Positions 18,692 to 29,690 of a stretch of 34,447 bases of DNA are shown here, piece after piece. The stretch spans positions 1 through 34,447 of the forward strand of contig JACWAD010000007.1 of the NCBI GenBank assembly GCA_014874175.1, in the 5' to 3' direction. Numbering within the stretch: the first letter of the stretch is position 1; every line of letters begins with the position of its first letter. Under the pieces are notes generated by a model that was given only the letters and a program-made list of their open reading frames with translations, had not been told where the DNA came from and made no database searches. Source of the DNA: Thermoleophilia bacterium. Lineage in GTDB: Bacteria > Actinomycetota > Thermoleophilia > BMS3ABIN01. A program made the position numbers and the translations under genes.

Positions 18692-20269
18692 ATGAACGAA
18701 ACGCACTCCGCAGGCAAGGTGTTTTTAATCGGCGCCGGTCCGGGTGATCCGGGGCTGTTTACGCTCCGTGGAGTTCAGTGCCTGAAGGCGGCCGGCGTGG
18801 TGGTCTACGATTACCTCGCCAGCCAGGACCTGCTTGCCTATGCGGCTGAGGGCGCCGAACTGATCTATGTGGGAAAGAAGGGCGGCGACCATACGATGCA
18901 GCAGGAAGATATCAACCGGCTGCTGGTGGAGAAAGGGCTGGCGGGCAGGGTGGTGGCGCGGCTGAAAGGCGGCGATTCGTTCATCTTTGGCCGTGGCGGC
19001 GAGGAGGCGCTCGCGCTGCACCAGGCCGGGGTTCCCTTCGAGGTTGTCCCGGGCATTTCCTCGGCTTATGCGGTTCCCGCTTACGCCGGCATTCCTGTCA
19101 CCCACCGCGGCCTGACAACCGATGTCACTTTCATTACCGGCCATGAAGATCCCACCAAGGCCGAATCCAATATCAAATGGGATAAAATATCAACGGGAGT
19201 CGGCACGCTGGTTTTCCTGATGGGAGTCAGGAATCTGCCATACATTGTTGAGAACCTGCTGGAAAACGGGCGGCCCGCCGCCACGCCGGTGGCGCTTGTG
19301 CGCTGGGGCACGACCCCGCGGCAGGAAACGCTGACCGGCACCCTGTCCAGCATTGTTGAGTTGGTCAGGGAACGGGGCTTCAAGGCGCCGGCGATCACAA
19401 TTGTTGGCGAAGTCGTGTCGCTGCGTGAGCAGCTGCGCTGGTTTGAAAACCGGCCCCTGTTCGGCAGGCGCATTGTGGTCACCCGCTCCAGGGACCAGGC
19501 CAGTGACCTGGTGCGGGCGCTCAAGGAAGCAGGGGCGCTGCCAGTGGAGTTTCCCACCATCAGGGTGGCGCCGCCTGAGTGCGGCTACACCGGGCTTGAC
19601 GGCGCCATCGGCAGGATCGTATCCAGGGGCGGCCCGGCCTTTGACTGGATCTTGTTTACGAGCGTCAATGGCGTGAAGAGTTTTTTCCAGCGCCTGGAGC
19701 ATCAGGGTGATATCCGCGACCTGAAGGGGATCAGCCTGGGAGCCATTGGTCCGGCGACGGCGGCTGAGCTTGAGCGCCGGGGGCTTAGGCTTGACTTTGT
19801 TCCTTCCGAATACCGCGCCGAGGCTGTTGTCGCGGGGCTGCTTGAGCTGGGCGTAAGCAATCGGCGCGTGCTCATTCCCCGGGCCCGCGAGGCGCGTGAA
19901 GTGCTGCCACAGGAATTGAGCGCCGCCGGCGCCGAGGTTGAGGTTGTCACAGCCTACGAGACGGTTCTGGAGCAAGCGGGCGTCCCAGAGATGAAGCGTA
20001 TGCTCAAGGACGGAGAAATTGATATCATTACTTTTACAAGCTCATCCACGGTTAAAAACTTCGTAGCGCTCCTCGATGGACTTGATTTTGCCGGCCTGCC
20101 GGCAGTGACCGTTGCCTGCATCGGGCCGGTGACGGCGAAAACTGCTAATGGGCTCGGCCTGCGCGTCGATATCGTGGCTCAGAAGTTTACGATTCCAGGC
20201 CTGGTGCAGGCGCTTGCTGCCTGGGCCGCCGCCGGCGGCAGGCGCCGGGGAAAGAAAGATAAGGCATGA
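18692..20269 (+). CDS. cobA-hemD: fused uroporphyrinogen-III C-methyltransferase / uroporphyrinogen-III synthase
   Basis: N-terminal GKVFLIGAGPGDPGLFTLRG, VARLKGGDSFIFGRGGEEA, VPGISSAYAVPAYAGIPVTHRG (SUMT); C-terminal RRIVVTRSRDQASDLVRALKEAGA, AIGPATAAELERRGL, ITFTSSSTVKNFVALL (HemD). Confidence 0.95.
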   Translation: MNETHSAGKVFLIGAGPGDPGLFTLRGVQCLKAAGVVVYDYLASQDLLAYAAEGAELIYVGKKGGDHTMQQEDINRLLVEKGLAGRVVARLKGGDSFIFGRGGEEALALHQAGVPFEVVPGISSAYAVPAYAGIPVTHRGLTTDVTFITGHEDPTKAESNIKWDKISTGVGTLVFLMGVRNLPYIVENLLENGRPAATPVALVRWGTTPRQETLTGTLSSIVELVRERGFKAPAITIVGEVVSLREQLRWFENRPLFGRRIVVTRSRDQASDLVRALKEAGALPVEFPTIRVAPPECGYTGLDGAIGRIVSRGGPAFDWILFTSVNGVKSFFQRLEHQGDIRDLKGISLGAIGPATAAELERRGLRLDFVPSEYRAEAVVAGLLELGVSNRRVLIPRAREAREVLPQELSAAGAEVEVVTAYETVLEQAGVPEMKRMLKDGEIDIITFTSSSTVKNFVALLDGLDFAGLPAVTVACIGPVTAKTANGLGLRVDIVAQKFTIPGLVQALAAWAAAGGRRRGKKDKA

Positions 20270-21468
20270 TTGATATTACCCGTCTTTATTGCGACCGGGA
20301 TACCCCTGCGGACTCCCTCCGTTACGGCCACGGCCACAAAGGCAAGGAAATGCCGGGAACGCCATACATTCCCCGCTGGACCAAGTCCGCGGCCGAGCGC
20401 CGGCCCGTAGTTGCCTGGAACACCAGCCGCACCTGCAACCTCAAGTGCGTTCACTGCTATACGGATTCGGAAGCCAGGAAGTACGAAGGCGAGCTCAGCA
20501 CGGAAGAGGGAATGGCGCTGATTGAAGACCTGGCCCGCTTCCAGATTCCGGCGCTGCTCTTCTCCGGTGGCGAGCCCCTGATGCGCAAGGACCTCTTCGA
20601 GCTGGCTTCCCACGCGGTATCCCTCGGCATCAGGCCGACGCTCTCCACCAACGGCACCCTCATTTCTCCGGAAGTGGCACGGCGGATCAAGGACCTCGGT
20701 TTTACCTATGTCGGCATCAGCCTGGACGGCATTGGCGACATCAATGACGCCTTCCGGGGCCAAAAAGGCGCCTTTTCCAGGGCGATGAGCGGTTTCCGCA
20801 ACTGCAAGGAAGTGGGGCAGCGGGTGGGCCTGCGCCTGACGCTGACGCGCCACAATTACACCGATCTGAGCCGGATCTTCGATTTCATCGAGGCGGAAGG
20901 GATTGACCGGGCATGTTTCTACCATCTTGTCTACTCGGGCCGGGGCAAGGAAAGCGACGATCTGACCCACGAGGAGACCCGCGACGCCCTGGACATCATT
21001 CTGGCGCGCACCAGGGACATGCACGACCGCGGCCTGGAGAAGGACATCCTTACCGTTGACAATCATGTCGACGGCATTTACCTGTACATGAAGCTGCTGG
21101 GCGAGGCGCCCGAGCGCGCAGAGGCGGTGATGCGGCTGCTTGAGTGGAACGGCGGCGGCATGTACAGCTCCGGCGTCGGCTTTGGCGATATTGACTTTTT
21201 GGGCAATGTGCACCCGGACCAGTTCTGGATGCATCACAGCTTTGGCAATGTGCGCGAGCGCCCCTTCAGCGAGATATGGATGGACACCTCCGACCCGCTG
21301 ATGGCGGGGCTGAAAGACAGGGCCGGCCACATCCACGGCCGCTGCCGCCGGTGCAGGTGGTTTGGCGCCTGCGGCGGCGCCCTGCGCGTGCGCGCCGACC
21401 TGGTCTACAACGATCCCTGGGCGCCCGACCCCGCCTGCTATCTGATGGATGATGAAATTAACGTTTAA
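20266..21468 (+). CDS. ahbC: radical SAM protein AhbC/NirJ1-like (12,18-didecarboxysiroheme deacetylase)
   Basis: MIDITRLYCDRDTPADSLRYGH N-terminus, VAWNTSRTCNLKCVHCYTDS (CX3CX2C), LFSGGEPLMRKDLF, C-terminal CRRCRWFGACGG cluster; next to ahbD/A/B and cobA-hemD. Confidence 0.9.
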   Translation: MIDITRLYCDRDTPADSLRYGHGHKGKEMPGTPYIPRWTKSAAERRPVVAWNTSRTCNLKCVHCYTDSEARKYEGELSTEEGMALIEDLARFQIPALLFSGGEPLMRKDLFELASHAVSLGIRPTLSTNGTLISPEVARRIKDLGFTYVGISLDGIGDINDAFRGQKGAFSRAMSGFRNCKEVGQRVGLRLTLTRHNYTDLSRIFDFIEAEGIDRACFYHLVYSGRGKESDDLTHEETRDALDIILARTRDMHDRGLEKDILTVDNHVDGIYLYMKLLGEAPERAEAVMRLLEWNGGGMYSSGVGFGDIDFLGNVHPDQFWMHHSFGNVRERPFSEIWMDTSDPLMAGLKDRAGHIHGRCRRCRWFGACGGALRVRADLVYNDPWAPDPACYLMDDEINV

Positions 21469-21545
21469 CGTTTCATGTTTAACTTTTCACGCCAAAACCG
21501 TTCCCGCCACGATAAGCATGGAGCGTTAAACGTGAAACGTTCACC
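21461..21545. repeat. ACGTTTMAYG-type heptad repeats in inverted orientation (17-bp stem) at the ahbC/ahbD junction
   Basis: AACGTTTCATGTTTAAC (21467-21483) and GTTAAACGTGAAACGTT (21525-21541) pair over 17 positions with one G.U. Confidence 0.8.
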
Positions 21546-22668
21546 GGAGAATTTGCATACTCACGCCGGTCATGCTCGCCATCCCGGCGGCAAGCCGGGG
21601 GAGGCGCCCGCGCTCCGCCTGGTCGCGTGGGAGGTCACCCGCCGGTGCAACCTCTCCTGCCGCCACTGCCGCGCCGCCGCCAACAAAGGGCCATATCCCG
21701 GCGAGCTGTCAACGGAAAAATGCCTCAGCGTTATTGATGAAATTGCAGAAACGGGCAGCCCGATTGTAATCCTCACCGGAGGCGATCCGATGATGCGGGA
21801 AAACGTCTGCGAGATAGCCCGCTATGGCACGGAAAAGGGCTTGAAAATGGTGATGTCGCCCTGCGGCACGCTGCTTGACGCAGGGAGCGCCAGGCGGCTG
21901 AAGGAAGCCGGGATCGACCGCATCTCGCTAAGCATCGACGGCGCCACCGCCGGGACCCATGACGATTTCCGCCGGGTGGAGGGCGCCTTCGATGAAGTCA
22001 TGAAGGGAATCGCCGCGGCCAAAAATGCCGGCATCGAGTTCCAGGTTAACACAACTGTGACCAAAGTTAACTTGGCCGAGTTGCCGGACATCCTAAAGCT
22101 TGCCATCGACCTGGGGGCGGCGGCCTTCCACCCCTTCCTGCTTGTGCCCACCGGCCGCGGCAAAGAGCTGGCCGACCAGGAGCTTTCGCCGGCGCAGTAT
22201 GAAGAGACGCTTAATTGGGTCTACGACCAGCGGGGCAAGCTGCCGCTTAATTTCAAGCCTACCTGCGCCCCCCATTATTACCGCATCCTCCGGCAGCGCG
22301 CCCATGCCGACGGCGAGCGCGTCACCGTAAAGACGCACGGCATGGACGCCGTCAGCAAGGGCTGCCTCGGCGGCCAGGGGTTTTGCTTTATCTCTTACCG
22401 GGGCGAGGTAAGGATTTGTGGTTTTCTCGATGTCAGTTGTGGCGACTTAAAAGAGCAGAGTTTTGGCGATGTCTGGCAGAGCTCGCCGGTTTTCCGGCAG
22501 ATGCGGGACCTGGACTCCTATCACGGCCGCTGCGGTTACTGCGAGTACCGCCGTTTTTGCGGCGGCTGCCGAGCCCGCGCCTACGAGGTCACGGGAGACT
22601 ACCTCGCGGAAGAGCCTTTCTGCGTCTATCAGCCGAAGGCTAAGAAACGGATGGTGGATGGTGGATAG
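21475..22668 (+). CDS. ahbD: radical SAM protein AhbD/NirJ2-like (heme synthase of the alternative pathway); start uncertain
   Basis: LVAWEVTRRCNLSCRHCRAAA, ILTGGDPMMRENV, SLSIDGATAGTHDDFRRVEGAF, C-terminal SPASM-like CGYCEYRRFCGGCRARAY. The first ~20 codons of the ORF lie in repeat sequence. Confidence 0.88.
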   Translation: MFNFSRQNRSRHDKHGALNVKRSPENLHTHAGHARHPGGKPGEAPALRLVAWEVTRRCNLSCRHCRAAANKGPYPGELSTEKCLSVIDEIAETGSPIVILTGGDPMMRENVCEIARYGTEKGLKMVMSPCGTLLDAGSARRLKEAGIDRISLSIDGATAGTHDDFRRVEGAFDEVMKGIAAAKNAGIEFQVNTTVTKVNLAELPDILKLAIDLGAAAFHPFLLVPTGRGKELADQELSPAQYEETLNWVYDQRGKLPLNFKPTCAPHYYRILRQRAHADGERVTVKTHGMDAVSKGCLGGQGFCFISYRGEVRICGFLDVSCGDLKEQSFGDVWQSSPVFRQMRDLDSYHGRCGYCEYRRFCGGCRARAYEVTGDYLAEEPFCVYQPKAKKRMVDGG

Positions 22669-22669
22669 A
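22649..22669. repeat. heptad repeat GGATGGT GGATGGT GGATAGA containing the ahbD stop codon
   Basis: Three in-phase heptads; TAG at 22666-22668. Confidence 0.6.
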
Positions 22670-22725
22670 ATCAAAACCACCAAATAGCTTTACAGGCAGA
22701 AAATCAGCCAACGGTTTTTTAGAAC

Positions 22726-23208
22726 TTGAAACTTGAAACTGTCTTTTTGGACGCCACCGACAAAAAACTGATAACTTTGATCCAGGCCGACTTCCCGATA
22801 ACGGACCGCCCCTACGCCGCCATCGGCGAGAAGCTGGGCGTCTTGGAGGAGGAAGTTATCAGGAGGATCAGAGCCATCATGGAGTCGGGGGAGATCCGCC
22901 GCCTGGGAGCCTCCTTTGACTCGCGACAGCTTGGTTACACCAGCACACTCTGCGCCGCGCACGTGCCGCCGGAAAAACTTGAGACGGCGGTGGCGGCGAT
23001 CAACTCCTATCATAATGTCACACATAATTACGAGCGCAACCATTACTACAATGTCTGGTTTACGGTAATCGCGCCCAGCCGCCTCCGCATCGGCGAGATT
23101 CTAGGCGAGATCGAGGAGCGCGCCGGCATCGGGCCCATCCTGGACCTGCCGGCAACGCGACTGTTCAAGATCCAGGTTGACCTGCCGGTATTAGAAAATG
23201 ACGAATGA
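22726..23208 (+). CDS. ahbA: siroheme decarboxylase subunit, Lrp/AsnC-like (AhbA type)
   Basis: DKKLITLIQADFPITDRPYAAIGEKLG, IRRLGASFDSRQLGYTSTLCAAHV, VTHNYERNHYYNVWFTVIA. Confidence 0.87.
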   Translation: MKLETVFLDATDKKLITLIQADFPITDRPYAAIGEKLGVLEEEVIRRIRAIMESGEIRRLGASFDSRQLGYTSTLCAAHVPPEKLETAVAAINSYHNVTHNYERNHYYNVWFTVIAPSRLRIGEILGEIEERAGIGPILDLPATRLFKIQVDLPVLENDE

Positions 23209-23210
23209 TC

Positions 23211-23279
23211 AAGACGTTTCACGTTTAACGTAATGGAAGGGGTTTACATGAAACGTGAGACGTTAAACGTTAAACGGTC
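23211..23279. repeat. inverted ACGTTT-type heptad repeats at the ahbA/ahbB junction
   Basis: CGTTTCACGTTTAACGT (23215-23231) versus ACGTTAAACGTTAAACG (23260-23276): 16/17 complementary. Confidence 0.75.
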
Positions 23280-23300
23280 CTGTTGGGGGTCGAGACCCGC

Positions 23301-23798
23301 ATGATGCAATCGCGTATGGTTGATAAAGAATTTAACAAGCGGGAGCGGCAGCTGGTGCGGCTGCTCCAGGAAAGCATTCCCTTGACTCCGCGGCCGTTTG
23401 CCGATCTTGCCGCTCAGGCCGGCATGGAGCCGGAAGAAGTGCTGGCCAGGGTGGCGGAGTGGAAAAAGGACGGCACGATCCGCCGATTCGGGGCGATGGT
23501 GCGGCACCAGCGCCTGGGATACACCGCCAATGCCATGAGCGCCTGGGACGTTCCCGATGAGCGGGCGGATGAGGTCGGACGGATCCTGGCGGCGGCTGAC
23601 GAGGTGAGTCACTGTTATCAGCGCCCGCGGGCGGAAAAATGGAATGTCAACCTCTTTGCCATGATTCACGGCGCCAGCCCCGGGGAATGCGAGCAGGTCG
23701 CGGCTAGGCTGTCAGCGCAGATCGGAATAGAAAAATATGGTCTTCTTTTCAGCAGCCGCGAGTTTAAGAAAATCAGCATGAAGTATTTCATTGAATAA
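23301..23798 (+). CDS. ahbB: siroheme decarboxylase subunit, Lrp/AsnC-like (AhbB type)
   Basis: RQLVRLLQESIPLTPRPFADLAAQAGM, IRRFGAMVRHQRLGYTANAMSAWDV, VSHCYQRPRAEKWNVNLFAMIHG. Confidence 0.88.
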   Translation: MMQSRMVDKEFNKRERQLVRLLQESIPLTPRPFADLAAQAGMEPEEVLARVAEWKKDGTIRRFGAMVRHQRLGYTANAMSAWDVPDERADEVGRILAAADEVSHCYQRPRAEKWNVNLFAMIHGASPGECEQVAARLSAQIGIEKYGLLFSSREFKKISMKYFIE

Positions 23799-24152
23799 TT
23801 ACCGGGGCGGGTATTGGCTGTCGCCTGTCCAAGCGAAAAACTGCATTTGAATTTCTAAAAGATGAGGCGCATAATGATCAAGGTTCTTTTATTCCTCAAG
23901 TTGAGAAAAAGAACTACCGAACAAGGGTTCGCAGCCGCAGCAGCGGAACAAATCAGCGGTCGGGTGGGGAACATTGTTCATCAGCGTCACGGGTTAAGAA
24001 TATGACAGCACGTTTTTGTGTTTCCTGGGAGATGCGGCAGCGTTTGCTGCCTGCAGGTCCCTCGTTGCAATCGGCGTTTGCGCATGCTCTATCCTGTACC
24101 GCCCGCAGGCGCCGCGCCGCATTCCTGCGGGCGCCCATTTCCGGTTAGCTCC

Positions 24153-25355
24153 TTGCAAGAAGCAAATTCTGAAAATATCGCCGCGCTGCCCAAAGAGGTC
24201 TCCAAGCCCCAGGTCTCGGTGGGGAAAAGGATATTCCATTTTCTCATCTCCATGAAGCTGGCGCTGACGCTGCTGTTTGTCATCGCCATCCTCTCGGTGA
24301 TCGGCACCATCCTGCCGCAGGGGCAGGATGTCTGGCAATCGGACTGGCCCAAAAGCCCCTTATTTGATTTCTATAACACACTCGGCCTTTTCAGCATGTA
24401 CTATTCGTGGTGGTTCCTGTCGGTGCTGGGACTGCTTGTCCTCAGCCTCTTCGCCTGCATCTTTAACCGCCTGCCCACCACCGTCAAGCACGTCTTCAAG
24501 CCCAGGATTGACGTCAAGGACGCTTTTGTCGCCAACCAGCCGATGGCCGGGTCTTTTGCCGGCGGCAGCGGCAGCGTCGAGGCCGCCACCGAGGTCTTGC
24601 GCCGCCATCATTACCGCGTCAAGACGGGCAAGAAGGGGTCGATGCTGGCTCAGAAAGGCCGCTACTCCAGCCTGGCTTCAGTTACCTTCCATCTCAGTTT
24701 CCTGTTTATTGCCGCCGGCGCCGTTCTGGGCGGCCTGCTTGGCTTTGATTACCAGCTCTCCCTTCCAAACGGGCAGCTTGTCAACGTTCCTCAGTCAAAC
24801 ATGCAGGTTGAGAGCCATCGTTTCGACATGCAGTTTGTCGGCAAGGCCCTGCTTGATGACGGCCGCACGGTGCAGGTGAGGCAGCTGATGGACGGAACTG
24901 TAGTCAGGGACATCAATGACGGCGGCAATATCGTCGGCGCGCCCTTTGACCTGCGTCCTTCCCTGTACTCCACCGACCTGGAGGTTTTTCAGAACGGGAA
25001 ATCGATCCAGAGAAAGACAATCCAGGTGAACGACCCGCTCGAGCTAAATGGCATTAATTTTTACCAGGCAAGTTTCAACCAGAGCAGCGACGGCAACGTG
25101 GTGTCGGTCCTGGAAGTGAATCACTATCCGGGCAAGACACTGGTTTATATTGGCGCTTTCCTGATGATGGGGTCGATCACGCTGGCGCTTTATTTCCCGC
25201 ACCGGCGAATCTGGCTGAAAACAGGCAATTCCGGCCAGCTGCTGGTCGGGGGCCGGACAAACCGGTCCAAGTTTGGATTCAAGCGCGATTTTGAACGCAT
25301 AGCAACTGACATTAAACTTAGAATTGGGCAGGAGGCCGGGGCTGATGGTAGTTAA
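24153..25355 (+). CDS. resB: cytochrome c biogenesis protein ResB/Ccs1 family (start uncertain)
   Basis: FLISMKLALTLLFVIAILSVIGTILPQ, YYSWWFLSVLGLLVLSLFACIFNRLP, LNGINFYQASF. The listed extension back to 24018 lacks family similarity. Confidence 0.87.
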   Translation: MQEANSENIAALPKEVSKPQVSVGKRIFHFLISMKLALTLLFVIAILSVIGTILPQGQDVWQSDWPKSPLFDFYNTLGLFSMYYSWWFLSVLGLLVLSLFACIFNRLPTTVKHVFKPRIDVKDAFVANQPMAGSFAGGSGSVEAATEVLRRHHYRVKTGKKGSMLAQKGRYSSLASVTFHLSFLFIAAGAVLGGLLGFDYQLSLPNGQLVNVPQSNMQVESHRFDMQFVGKALLDDGRTVQVRQLMDGTVVRDINDGGNIVGAPFDLRPSLYSTDLEVFQNGKSIQRKTIQVNDPLELNGINFYQASFNQSSDGNVVSVLEVNHYPGKTLVYIGAFLMMGSITLALYFPHRRIWLKTGNSGQLLVGGRTNRSKFGFKRDFERIATDIKLRIGQEAGADGS

Positions 25356-26406
25356 GCTCGAGGAAATTTTATTCATAGTTACCGTACTCACGTACCTGGC
25401 GGCCAGCGGCGTCTACATCTGGCATCTGATCTCGAACAGCAGGAGGGCCGGCCAGTTGGGGACAATGCTGCTGGTGCTGGGCCTGTTTGCCCACACAATG
25501 GCGCTGATATTCCGCTGGGTCGATTCCGGCCATGCTCCCATGTCCGACTCGTACGAGTCACTGGCCGTGTTCAGCTGGGGCATAGTTCTCTTTTACCTGA
25601 TCATGGAGAGGGTCTATGCGATCCGGGCCGCCGGCGCCGTCGTGGTTCCCACAGCCTTTATCATTGCCAGCATCGCCCTGGTGCTGAACAAGGGGCCAAA
25701 TCCGCTGGTGCCGGCGCTGCAGAGTTACTGGCTCTGGATCCACGTTTCCATTGCCATGCTTTCCTACGGTTTCTTTGCGCTGGCCTTTGGGGCCGGGTTC
25801 TTTTACATCGTCCAGGAGCACCTGCTTAAAAAGCATTACCAGAACGTGGTAATCGCCTTTATGATCATGCTCGCCGTGATTGGCCTGGGAGTCGGCCTCT
25901 GGCTGGGCTTCGGGGTCTGGGCTCACCCGCTCGACATCGTTGACCCGGTCACAAAGGAGCATTCGAACCAGTATTCCAATGCCGACATCCTCAAGATAAT
26001 CGGTGGCGGCGTCATCGGCCTGGTGGTCGGCATCGTGCTCGGTTTTCTGGCCGGCAAAGGCGCCTCGCGGCCGGGATTTGCCAGGCGCCTGCCTTCTCTT
26101 GACGTCCTGGATGAAGTCAGCTACAGGGCGATTGCTTTTGGCTTTCCGATGGTCACAATAGGCATCATCACCGGCGCCATCTGGGCTGACAAGGCCTGGG
26201 GCCGCTACTGGTCCTGGGACCCCAAGGAAACCTGGTCGTTGATAACTTGGCTGTTCTATGGTGCCTACCTGCACACGCGCCTCACCTGGGGATGGCGCGG
26301 ACGCCATTCCGCGGTGATTGCAGTGCTTGGCATCGTTATTGTGCTGTTTACCTACCTTGGGGTTAACTACCTGCTGTCAGGCCTGCATTCGTACGCATCC
26401 GCGTAG
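25345..26406 (+). CDS. ccsB: cytochrome c biogenesis protein CcsB/CcsA (ResC) family
   Basis: Tryptophan-rich heme-handling motif WADKAWGRYWSWDPKETWSLITWLFYGAYLHTRLTWGWRG; polytopic; start after caggagg. Confidence 0.92.
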   Translation: MVVKLEEILFIVTVLTYLAASGVYIWHLISNSRRAGQLGTMLLVLGLFAHTMALIFRWVDSGHAPMSDSYESLAVFSWGIVLFYLIMERVYAIRAAGAVVVPTAFIIASIALVLNKGPNPLVPALQSYWLWIHVSIAMLSYGFFALAFGAGFFYIVQEHLLKKHYQNVVIAFMIMLAVIGLGVGLWLGFGVWAHPLDIVDPVTKEHSNQYSNADILKIIGGGVIGLVVGIVLGFLAGKGASRPGFARRLPSLDVLDEVSYRAIAFGFPMVTIGIITGAIWADKAWGRYWSWDPKETWSLITWLFYGAYLHTRLTWGWRGRHSAVIAVLGIVIVLFTYLGVNYLLSGLHSYASA

Positions 26407-26415
26407 GAAGGACCC

Positions 26416-27048
26416 ATGCCTCTTTATCCCGTCAACCTCAAGGTAGGCGGACGCCTCTGCGTCATCATCGGCGGGGGGCGGGTAGCGCTGCGCAAAACCG
26501 AGGGGCTGCTGGAATGTGAGGCCGAGGTTAAAGTGATTGCACCGGCGCTGGATGACGGATTCAAGGGCCTCCGCGGGCGGTTTGAATACGTGGCCCGGCC
26601 ATACCGCTGGGGGGACCTGGACGGTGCTTTTCTGGCGATAGCGGCAACAGACGACGAGACCACCAATCGCGCCGTTGAGGAAGAGGCGCATGGCAGGCAC
26701 ATGCTCCTTAATGTCGTGGACAGGCCGGAGCAGTGCAATTTTTATGTCCCCTCGGTCGTCCGGCGGGGAGAGTTGATGATTACTGTGTCCACCGGCGGGG
26801 GGCTGCCCGCCCTCTCCCGCAGGCTGCGGCAGCAGCTCGAGGGGCAGTTTCCCGGGGAGTGGGGGCGGGCGCTGGAGCTCTGGGGAAAGGCGCGCCAGCG
26901 GGTGCTGGCCCACGTCCGGGATGAGGAAAAGAAGCAGAAGTGCCTGACCGAGCTGGCGGCGCTGGACCTGGCTGGGGCTCTTAAAGCCGGCGGCGAGTTG
27001 GCCGCCCAGGCGGAGATCGACAAATGCATCTCGCCGTACTTGGCATAA
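26416..27048 (+). CDS. sirC: precorrin-2 dehydrogenase / sirohydrochlorin ferrochelatase-like (CysG N-terminal/Met8 family)
   Basis: LYPVNLKVGGRLCVIIGGGRVALRKTEGLLECEAEVKVIAP, NVVDRPEQCNFYVPSVVRRGELMITVSTGGGLPALSRRLRQQLE. Confidence 0.92.
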   Translation: MPLYPVNLKVGGRLCVIIGGGRVALRKTEGLLECEAEVKVIAPALDDGFKGLRGRFEYVARPYRWGDLDGAFLAIAATDDETTNRAVEEEAHGRHMLLNVVDRPEQCNFYVPSVVRRGELMITVSTGGGLPALSRRLRQQLEGQFPGEWGRALELWGKARQRVLAHVRDEEKKQKCLTELAALDLAGALKAGGELAAQAEIDKCISPYLA

Positions 27049-28352
27049 ACCACAAGACAGCTCCCGTAGAGCTGCGCGAGAAAGTTGCCTTAAGCGAGGA
27101 GAAATGCGGGGCGCTCTCCCGGCGGTTGCTTGATGGAAACGGCGTGCTCGAGGTAGTTCCGCTTTCCACGTGCAACCGCACGGAAGTTTACGTGGTGGCC
27201 TCGCGGCCGGAAGCCGGCCAGAAAGAGGTTCTGGCGGCGCTGGCCAGGCAGGGCGGCGTCTCCGCCGCCGAGCTGGAGGAGTGCTCGTATTTTCACCAGG
27301 GGGAAAGCGCGGTGCGGCATCTCTACCGGGTGGCCGGCAGTCTTGACTCCATGGTCGTGGGCGAAGCCCAGATAATGGGCCAGATCAAGGACGCCTACCG
27401 CCTGGCGCACAAGCAGGAAAGCACCAGCGTGCTTCTGAACCGGCTGTTCAGGCATGCTCTGGAAGTAGGCAAGCGCATCAGGACCGAGACCGCGATTGGC
27501 GAGAACCCTGTCTCCGTGTCCTCAGTGGCTGTCGAGATGGCCAAGAAAGTGTTTGAGAACCTGGAAGGGAAGGCAGTCCTGCTGCTGGGCGCAGGCAAGA
27601 TGAGCGAGCTTACCGCCACTCATCTGCTTTCGCAGGGAATCGCCAGGATATTTGTCGGCAACCGCACGCTCAGCCGCGCCGAGGCGCTGGCGGAAAAATT
27701 CAACGGCCAGGCTATTCCCTACGATGACCTGACTGATTATCTGCCCCTGGCCGACATCGTCATCAGCTCCACCGGCTCCCCCCATTACGTCCTCCGAAAG
27801 GGAGAAGTGGAGGGCGCCCTGCGCCGCCGCCACAACCTTCCGATCTTCTTTATTGATATAGCGGTTCCCCGTGACATTGATCCCGGGGTCAACGACGTCA
27901 ACAATGCCTTCCTCTTTGATATCGATGACTTGCAGGAGGTGGCGTGCGCCAACGCCGTCGCCCGCAAAAAGGAAGCGGAAAAGGCGGAGAAGATTATCAG
28001 CCAGGAGGTTGATAATTTCAGCCAGTGGCTAGCCAGCCTGGACGTGGTGCCGACAATCACGGCTCTCAGGCAGATGGCCGAGGAAATCAGGCAGGTGGAG
28101 GTGGCCAGGGCGCTGGCCCGCTTTGACGGCGAGCTCTCCGAGAAAGACAGAAAGCGCGTAGAGGCGATGGCCGCCGGCATCGTCAACAAGATTTTGCACG
28201 AACCGACCATCGAACTGAAGCGTGCCTCGAATGAGCGCGGCGGTTACCTTTATGTGGAATCAATGCGGCGCCTGTTCAGGCTGAACGGCCAAAAGAAAAT
28301 TGAAACGGGAGAGGACCCGAAGCTGCGCCAAATGGAGAAAGATGAGCACTGA
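27024..28352 (+). CDS. hemA: glutamyl-tRNA reductase
   Basis: MHLAVLGINHKTAPVELREKVAL, LSTCNRTEVYVV, VVGEAQIMGQIKDAY, IDIAVPRDIDPGV; overlaps sirC by 25 nt. Confidence 0.97.
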   Translation: MHLAVLGINHKTAPVELREKVALSEEKCGALSRRLLDGNGVLEVVPLSTCNRTEVYVVASRPEAGQKEVLAALARQGGVSAAELEECSYFHQGESAVRHLYRVAGSLDSMVVGEAQIMGQIKDAYRLAHKQESTSVLLNRLFRHALEVGKRIRTETAIGENPVSVSSVAVEMAKKVFENLEGKAVLLLGAGKMSELTATHLLSQGIARIFVGNRTLSRAEALAEKFNGQAIPYDDLTDYLPLADIVISSTGSPHYVLRKGEVEGALRRRHNLPIFFIDIAVPRDIDPGVNDVNNAFLFDIDDLQEVACANAVARKKEAEKAEKIISQEVDNFSQWLASLDVVPTITALRQMAEEIRQVEVARALARFDGELSEKDRKRVEAMAAGIVNKILHEPTIELKRASNERGGYLYVESMRRLFRLNGQKKIETGEDPKLRQMEKDEH

Positions 28353-29307
28353 CCGCGCCCGGGGCGTGGTAATCGGCACCCGCGGCAGTGAGCTGGCTAT
28401 GTTTCAGGCGCGCCAGGTGGCCTGGACGCTGCAAAGAAACAACATTGGCCTTTCGGTCAGGATCAGGAAGATAACGACCTCCGGCGACAAGATTCTGGAT
28501 TCGCCGCTGGCCAGGATCGGCGACAAGGGACTCTTTGTCAAGGAGATTGAGGCAGCCCTGCTTGCGGGCGAGATTGACCTCGCCGTCCACAGCGCCAAGG
28601 ACCTGCCCACTGTTCTGCCTAGCGGCCTCGTTGTCGGCGCTTTTGGCCGCCGCGAGGATCCCCGCGATGTTTTCATCGGCGGCGCCCGCAGCCTCAGGGG
28701 CATCCCTGCCGGAGGCAAGGTTGGCACCAGCAGCCTCCGGCGCCGCTCGCAGCTGCTGTCACTGAGGCCCGACCTGGACATCGTTGACATAAGAGGAAAT
28801 GTTGACACCAGAATCAGGAAGATAGAGGAGCAGGGGCTCGACGGCACCATCCTGGCTGCTGCCGGCGTCAAGAGGCTTGAGAAAGAAGGACAGATAGCCT
28901 TTCATTTTTCCTTCGAGGAGCTGTTGCCGGCAGTCGGGCAGGGCGTAATCGCCATCGAGGTGCGAAGTGACGACACCCCCGCCGGCCAGCTGACCCGCGC
29001 ATTTAATGATGAAGACTCTGCCGCCTGCGTGCGCACCGAGCGGGCGCTGATGCGCTGGCTGGAGGGCGGTTGCCAGGTGCCTATTGGTGCCCATGCGCAG
29101 GTTGACGGCGGCAGGCTGACCCTGAGGGCTTTCCTCGGCTCCCTGGACGGGGCCAGCGCCGTGCGCGACTTTATCGAGGGGTCCGCCCGGGATGCCGGGC
29201 AGTTGGGCGAAGCCCTGGCGGAAAGGATGCACGCAAACGGGGGTGCGGAGATACTGGCGGCTGTGCGCGAGGCCAACGAGGGCGATGGCACGGGCTACTG
29301 GACGTAG
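28342..29307 (+). CDS. hemC: hydroxymethylbilane synthase
   Basis: VVIGTRGSELAMFQARQV, AVHSAKDLPT, GTSSLRRRSQLLSLRPDL, AVGQGVIAIEVR, EGGCQVPIGAHA; ATG 28342 after atggagaaag rather than 28300. Confidence 0.97.
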   Translation: MSTDRARGVVIGTRGSELAMFQARQVAWTLQRNNIGLSVRIRKITTSGDKILDSPLARIGDKGLFVKEIEAALLAGEIDLAVHSAKDLPTVLPSGLVVGAFGRREDPRDVFIGGARSLRGIPAGGKVGTSSLRRRSQLLSLRPDLDIVDIRGNVDTRIRKIEEQGLDGTILAAAGVKRLEKEGQIAFHFSFEELLPAVGQGVIAIEVRSDDTPAGQLTRAFNDEDSAACVRTERALMRWLEGGCQVPIGAHAQVDGGRLTLRAFLGSLDGASAVRDFIEGSARDAGQLGEALAERMHANGGAEILAAVREANEGDGTGYWT

Positions 29308-29377: not shown

Positions 29378-29416
29378 AACGCAGGGAGCGATCCGTCCCG
29401 GATCGCTCCCTGCGTT
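29378..29416. terminator. strong bidirectional terminator-like hairpin (18-bp perfect stem, 3-nt loop)
   Basis: aacgcagggagcgatccg-tcc-cggatcgctccctgcgtt, followed by t(aaa) on the plus strand and ctttc on the minus strand; lies between convergent hemC and the 40-aa ORF. Confidence 0.8.
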
Positions 29417-29472: not shown

Positions 29473-29595
29473 CTACGGCGCCGGCGGCACAGTAACGCTA
29501 CAGGACCAGTTAGAGCACTCAAAAGTGAGCTGCTTCAAGTTGTCATGCTTGGACAGCTCCGGCTTCTGGTAGACAGCCTTTACCTGCTTATCCAT
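29473..29595 (-). CDS. 40-aa putative RiPP-like precursor or small peptide (not in the supplied ORF track)
   Basis: MDKQVKAVYQKPELSKHDNLKQLTFECSNWSCSVTVPPAP*; SD gaagggaggaacagaATG; leader-like YxKPxL...LxxLT and Cys/Trp/Pro-containing C-terminus. Confidence 0.7.
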   Translation of the reverse strand: MDKQVKAVYQKPELSKHDNLKQLTFECSNWSCSVTVPPAP

Positions 29596-29661
29596 TCTGT
29601 TCCTCCCTTCAACCCTGTCAAAACTTTCCCAGCCCCCCGGGCTGATGCCCGAATGTAGAGG

Positions 29662-29690
29662 AACATATCACGGCATCCTGGTTTTGACAA
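29662..29690 (-). promoter_or_regulatory. sigma-A-like promoter for the 40-aa ORF
   Basis: Minus strand TTGTCA-(17 nt aaaccaggatgccgtga)-TATGTT, about 70 nt upstream of the ATG at 29595. Confidence 0.55.

Follow-up and report, generated by a model that had tools for sequence, protein, structure and literature searches.

A dispersed, multicopy peptide family of one Thermoleophilia family as candidate precursor of a non-lasso RiPP matured in trans

Introduction

Is the unlisted 40-codon frame on the minus strand of a Thermoleophilia contig a gene, and if so, what kind of peptide does it specify and which enzymes could act on it? The window analysed here is the whole 34,447-nt stretch of contig JACWAD010000007.1. 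A preliminary description of this DNA presented the frame as a gene that looks like an orphan RiPP precursor, and that reading as a whole is partly supported. The points beyond it are a multicopy peptide family, an HprK/PqqD/B2 cassette elsewhere in the genome, a fixed core, and a placement of peptide genes next to genes for secreted proteins. The source organisms are uncultured Actinomycetota of a single family, represented by metagenome-assembled genomes (MAGs).

The peptide gene and its signals

The frame occupies 29473-29595 on the minus strand, stop codon included, and its product is MDKQVKAVYQKPELSKHDNLKQLTFECSNWSCSVTVPPAP; the frame, sequence and coordinates given earlier are exact. Comparison with paralogues and family copies shows the 40-aa gene to be real and subject to purifying selection. 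Its status is far beyond chance because it has matches within its own genome, pN/pS values of 0.13-0.34, and copies in all 18 other genomes of the family. Counterparts of the window copy adjoin the same hemC, LOG and helicase genes in four congeners, and these relatives carry no frameshifts. Over 29 motif-anchored codons, pN/pS is 0.13-0.20 against the same-locus counterparts and 0.29-0.34 against two more distant copies beside LOG or helicase genes. A dispersed non-coding DNA repeat is ruled out, since synonymous sites are far more divergent than nonsynonymous ones and the flanks differ. The resemblance to the Ogr/Delta zinc finger (PF04606) was also set aside, as the peptide scores 16.8 bits, under the curated cut-off of 26.3 bits.

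A Shine-Dalgarno sequence, GGGAGG, lies at 29602-29607 (minus strand) as described, with a spacer that measures 6 nt rather than the 7 nt first given. The promoter-like TTGTCA-17-TATGTT at 29662-29690 (minus strand) is likewise present; as a consensus match only, it agrees at 9 of 12 positions and has an extended TG. The 2-kb region holds three such sites where 0.4 are expected, and the second overlaps the start codon. The downstream hairpin at 29378-29416 (minus strand) is stable, with 18 bp, -38.6 kcal/mol and z = -6.5. It is terminator-like; its U-tract is poor, and the hairpin is not among the calls of a consensus terminator scan. It may serve both hemC and the peptide gene because it lies between these two convergent genes. 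Rfam gave no match anywhere in the window.

The window also contains, at 18692-29307, genes that resemble an alternative (ahb-type) heme pathway, cytochrome c biogenesis and hemA/hemC, judging from translations and the preliminary description. The ahbC/ahbD pair had been named as the only radical SAM genes of the window, and it has no visible link to the peptide. A radical-SAM product of ahbC/ahbD was rejected, as these were assigned as heme enzymes and nothing links them to the peptide.

A multicopy family confined to one lineage

The peptide is not an orphan as first proposed: its own genome has about 10 copies. At E <= 10, ten places match in this genome (1.78 Mb in 107 contigs), the window copy plus nine paralogues on other contigs, which are 38-83% identical; eight are strong and the weakest has E = 0.08. 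The homologues that had been called for exist throughout the family, with full-length relatives in 19 of the 19 Thermoleophilia MAGs searched. Copy number ranges from 4 to 12 per genome, and each of the 18 other genomes carries at least four matches. By contrast, no match occurs in 41 genomes that represent other families of the class. A phylum-wide sample of 398 genomes has full-length matches in its seven family members only. A scan of 85,462 species gave 76 loci, nearly all of them in MAGs labelled Thermoleophilia, Actinomycetes, Actinobacteria or Gaiellales. One locus is labelled Dehalococcoidia; its sample also yielded a Thermoleophilia bin, so mis-binning is possible.

Leader and core

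Residues 1-25 (29521-29595, minus strand) form the predicted leader, with Tyr9 (-17), Pro12 (-14), Leu14 (-12), Thr24 (-2) and Phe25 (-1) numbered from the predicted cleavage site. The preliminary description likened it to RRE-recognised leaders of the YxxPxL...T type, and the register, YxxPxL at -17 to -12 and Thr at -2, equals that of Bsf-type lasso precursors and the lasso rule of Thr at -2 (PMC10368454). Alanine at -17, -14 or -12 left Bsf processing hardly changed (PMC10368454); therefore, the leader motif alone is no proof of use. The predicted core, ECSNWSCSVTVPPAP (29476-29520, minus strand), contains Cys2, Trp5, Cys7 and Ser8.

Both parts are strongly conserved. With Thr set at -2, the 99 distinct relatives retain Tyr-17 in 97, Leu-12 in 94, Asn-7 in 96 and Phe-1 in 89, and the core keeps Cys2 in 91, Cys7 in 98 and Ser8 in all 99. 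The search pattern demanded Pro-14, Thr-2 and Trp5, so constancy at these positions carries no independent weight; it left Ser8 and Asn-7 free. The core follows a near-invariant pattern, ECxxWxCSVxVPPxP, in which position 9 is mostly Val and position 3 is Pro, Ser or Ala. The core had been judged unfit for a lasso peptide, and this stands, as neither Asp nor Glu occurs at its positions 7-9. A minority of paralogues retain the leader and the TF....W.CS block and replace VPPxP with acidic or Ser/Asp-rich tails. Divergent copies at L268:6757, L269:6799, L271:6814 and 7212, L272:6506, L014:6642 and L015:1743 retain the leader and TF....W.CS or a close variant, and end in Asp/Ser-rich or His/Asp stretches instead of VPPxP.

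A candidate cassette on another contig

As noted before, there is no maturase gene within the window. The genome encodes two PqqD-type RREs, and one of them belongs to a cassette on contig C83 in the order HprK-like kinase (K2), PqqD-type RRE, lasso-type B2 peptidase. The genome thus holds both an RRE (B1) and a B2 leader peptidase, as lasso systems do. The RRE scores 70.8 bits against PqqD (cut-off 23.4), and the B2 protein only just passes NF033537 with 36.2 bits (cut-off 33); its peptidase motifs are kept. The solved structures nearest to this RRE are the lasso RREs TbiB1, PbaB1 and TfuB1, together with LppB of the system for linear polyphosphorylated peptides (LPP). LppB holds the YxxP motif through Asn33 and Asp70 (PMC13381572), and the equivalent residues here are Asn and Asp, both kept.

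The cassette is conserved among genomes with the peptide. B2 is present in 16 of the 19 family genomes versus 3 of 41 others, and went undetected in G005 (92% complete), G012 (69%) and G018 (78%). K2 adjoins B2 in 14 of the 16; it lies on the same contig about 20 kb away in G003 and was not found in G015. A simple pattern recovers the HprK-like His and P-loop motif from 16 of 18 kinase sequences. Behind B2, relatives usually encode a DUF2079 membrane protein, and the surroundings contain glycosyltransferase-like genes. In nine genomes, the neighbourhood of the cassette yielded no YxxPxL...T precursor. The link between peptide and cassette rests on motif, exclusion and co-distribution, because no peptide copy lies beside RRE/B2.

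Secreted-protein neighbours and the K1 block

Orientation and spacing behind genes for secreted proteins are strikingly constant. In 27 of 39 peptides, a same-strand gene for a secreted protein with domain A2 ends 32-113 nt upstream; the 39 are those with sufficient upstream sequence, in stretches chosen around peptides and kinases and not at random. Genome-wide, among the matches listed, at least 44 of 114 peptides lie behind a gene with the domain, with a spacing of 38-114 nt in 43, and only two cases show another arrangement of domain gene and peptide. The upstream proteins are large and of rhodanese, parallel beta-helix/NosD, BNR or unknown type. The main exception to this placement is the window copy with its same-locus relatives, and many A2 copies have no peptide behind them.

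A2 is a C-terminal, Ig-like domain of about 106 residues common to these secreted proteins. All 19 family genomes have 11-39 matches each, and at E <= 1e-8 there are none in the 391 other genomes of the phylum sample. The sequence pattern of this lineage-restricted domain is ..YWASLSDY..LSV..TLKYNVPxGV..YTYP. The proteins scanned gave no Pfam match to the domain. AlphaFold2 models it confidently as a beta-sandwich (pLDDT 96.1); searches of the PDB by profile and with Foldseek returned only weak generic matches (best Foldseek E 3.2e-3), so no function is read from the fold. The full-length peptide, the A2 domain and the kinases share one distribution, occurring in 7 of the 398 phylum genomes and in no others of that sample. 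A single lineage can make several traits co-distribute in the absence of a functional link, and such co-distribution says little for an interaction.

K1, the second HprK-like kinase, is encoded on contig C86 in a block of secreted protein, peptide, lipoprotein, K1, secreted protein and peptide. K1 and peptide copies lie close together on the same contig in most family genomes. All 10 lipoproteins examined have a core-like C-terminus, for example GWDSGGIEIVVPPSP or GGIPITVPGAP. Of 575 ORFs with a length of 100 aa or more, the corresponding pattern picks out the ten lipoproteins, one peptide-copy ORF and four others. The pattern was drawn up after viewing the lipoproteins, so the likeness is a lead and not a test. 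The lipoproteins between peptide and K1 (L009:12322-12963, L123:9564-10121, L134:1958-2509 and seven others) have a Gly-rich linker followed by a tail of the form W..GGIxIxVPPxP.

Comparison with known systems

On sequence grounds, the closest known system is LPP, and the peptide is neither an LPP nor a lasso peptide. LPP, described in 2026 as restricted to Bacillota, combines an RRE with an HprK kinase and has no cyclase (PMC13381572). The two systems share a YxxP leader, a discrete PqqD-type RRE, an HprK-like kinase, the lack of a cyclase, and a frequent location near polysaccharide genes, which here applies to the cassette in relatives. They differ in that LPP has a signal-peptidase-I-like leader peptidase instead of a lasso-type B2; here, a signal-peptidase-like gene occurs with another, radical-SAM cassette. 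LPP precursors lie in the cluster and have variable cores, whereas the copies here are dispersed and the core is fixed. The LPP phosphosite is Ser3; phosphorylation at that site is unlikely here because position 3 is Pro, Ser or Ala.

Phosphorylated lasso peptides of the paeninodin type (BsfA/K/B1/B2, PMC10368454) share the Y-17/P-14/L-12 register and also have a key residue at -2, normally Thr but Ile in BsfA. An HprK-like kinase and the division of B1 and B2 into separate proteins are further common traits. In contrast to them, the present system has no cyclase, no Asp/Glu at 7-9, many dispersed copies and a fixed core. SynChlorMet and HPr-rel-A cassettes (TIGR04249, TIGR04248, TIGR04352) also pair an HprK-related kinase with a PqqD-like protein; however, all scores here are far under the family cut-offs, and the assigned cassette has no radical SAM gene. 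Prochlorosins resemble this family in having many precursors that are mostly unlinked to the maturase. Their cores are hypervariable and lanthionine-bridged, unlike the almost fixed core found here. Dispersed copies, a fixed core and the placement behind secreted-protein genes are the new features.

Maturation in trans and its alternatives

We consider it probable that the peptide is the precursor of a non-lasso RiPP matured in trans by the C83-type cassette. Maturation in trans had been raised in the preliminary description and appears the best reading, with the candidate cassette on another contig. The near-invariant core speaks against a RiPP, as it is unlike secreted antibiotics. It is unlikely that the peptide is an unmodified small protein inside the cell, with the RRE or some other partner as its binding target, which for instance helps the secreted proteins to fold or acts as their translation-coupled partner. 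The core hardly varies, and the examined copies have no adjoining maturase except the K1 kinase, which fits such a protein. This account leaves unexplained the exact lasso-leader register including Thr-2, as well as a conserved RRE+B2 cassette that has no precursor of its own, and divergent paralogues retain the leader and WxCS while the remainder changes.

That the peptide is instead a lasso precursor with an aberrant ring, closed in trans by an asparagine-synthetase-like enzyme, is hardly credible and already contradicted. B1, B2 and the HprK-like kinase are of lasso type, and the genome encodes two AsnB homologues, one lacking the N-terminal Cys. Yet the ring has no acceptor at positions 7-9, which are Cys (98/99), Ser (99/99) and mostly Val; the homologues reach 281 and 252 bits versus a lasso-cyclase cut-off of 525 and score best as other amidotransferases; and G002 (98% complete), with 11 peptides, B2 and kinases, has no AsnB-type match better than 2.7e-6. 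The AsnB homologue on contig C25 is ruled out as a hidden cyclase by its far sub-cut-off score.

It is also very unlikely that the peptide is a substrate of the second RRE cassette (HprK, PqqD, radical SAM and signal-peptidase-like genes), with a radical-SAM crosslink at Cys or Trp. This cassette exists in the family, and the core offers two Cys and one Trp; however, the cassette is adjoined by precursors of its own, which fall into two other types and differ in their leaders, and its ORFs look broken in the genome studied here. It resembles LPP plus a radical SAM gene and is found at L261:3608-6866, L263:3438-7095, L259:2731-6024 and L262:5679-8620; at L049:5455-7722, in the own genome, the RRE and radical SAM ORFs look frameshifted. 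Its precursors are of the types MKKEYxAPxLRxVKINEPLAYACNVYN...GTWSGCNLxTDxHxxC and YxEPxIERVPLVxEEAVLxNCKCVxPQIxGPPxGWCSGxFQxSCSxVGS.

Proposed mechanism and significance

If maturation in trans by the C83-type cassette is correct, the RRE would bind Tyr-17, Pro-14 and Leu-12 of every copy, wherever it is encoded. An HprK-like kinase might phosphorylate a core residue, for which the invariant Ser8 is the best candidate; against this choice, the sites modified by known kinases of this kind are Ser3 or a C-terminal Ser and not position 8. B2 would cut after Thr-Phe and remove the leader. The product would be a linear peptide of about 15 residues, E-C-x-x-W-x-C-S-V-x-V-P-P-x-P, perhaps closed by a Cys2-Cys7 disulfide. 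More tentatively, it could act extracellularly with the secreted proteins as a ligand, cap or surface tag, and the window copy could be a stand-alone source of the same peptide. We propose a role as a surface partner rather than an antibiotic because the core is fixed, the peptide genes are linked to those for secreted proteins, and the lipoprotein tail resembles the core. A bolder version is doubtful: that one conserved, lasso-type-processed phosphopeptide from dispersed genes would be the dedicated partner of the secreted proteins through their Ig-like domain in surface attachment or assembly, that it would constitute a new RiPP class, and that the kinase-linked lipoprotein tail would compete for or mimic the same site.

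RiPP mining mostly searches beside maturases; many precursors here lie far from theirs and hence are invisible to it. The core is conserved like a housekeeping part and does not vary as a weapon would. Should the association with secreted proteins prove functional, it would suggest a use of RRE/B2/HprK chemistry in cell-surface biology and would bear on the question of phosphopeptide purpose raised in the LPP paper.

Related leaders in another family

In the 398-genome sample, five genomes of another family, f12, match the leader part only, and two further genomes give marginal partial matches. The f12 matches are short ORFs, often in tandem, for example MEKDERKDYQKPELTEHENLDEVTKGNGPGPSEQL. 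The f12 loci (L161, L162, L163, L175 and L176) have the same leader, ..YQKPELxEHENLxEVTKG.., followed by tiny unrelated cores, and several of these short ORFs adjoin radical SAM-like genes.
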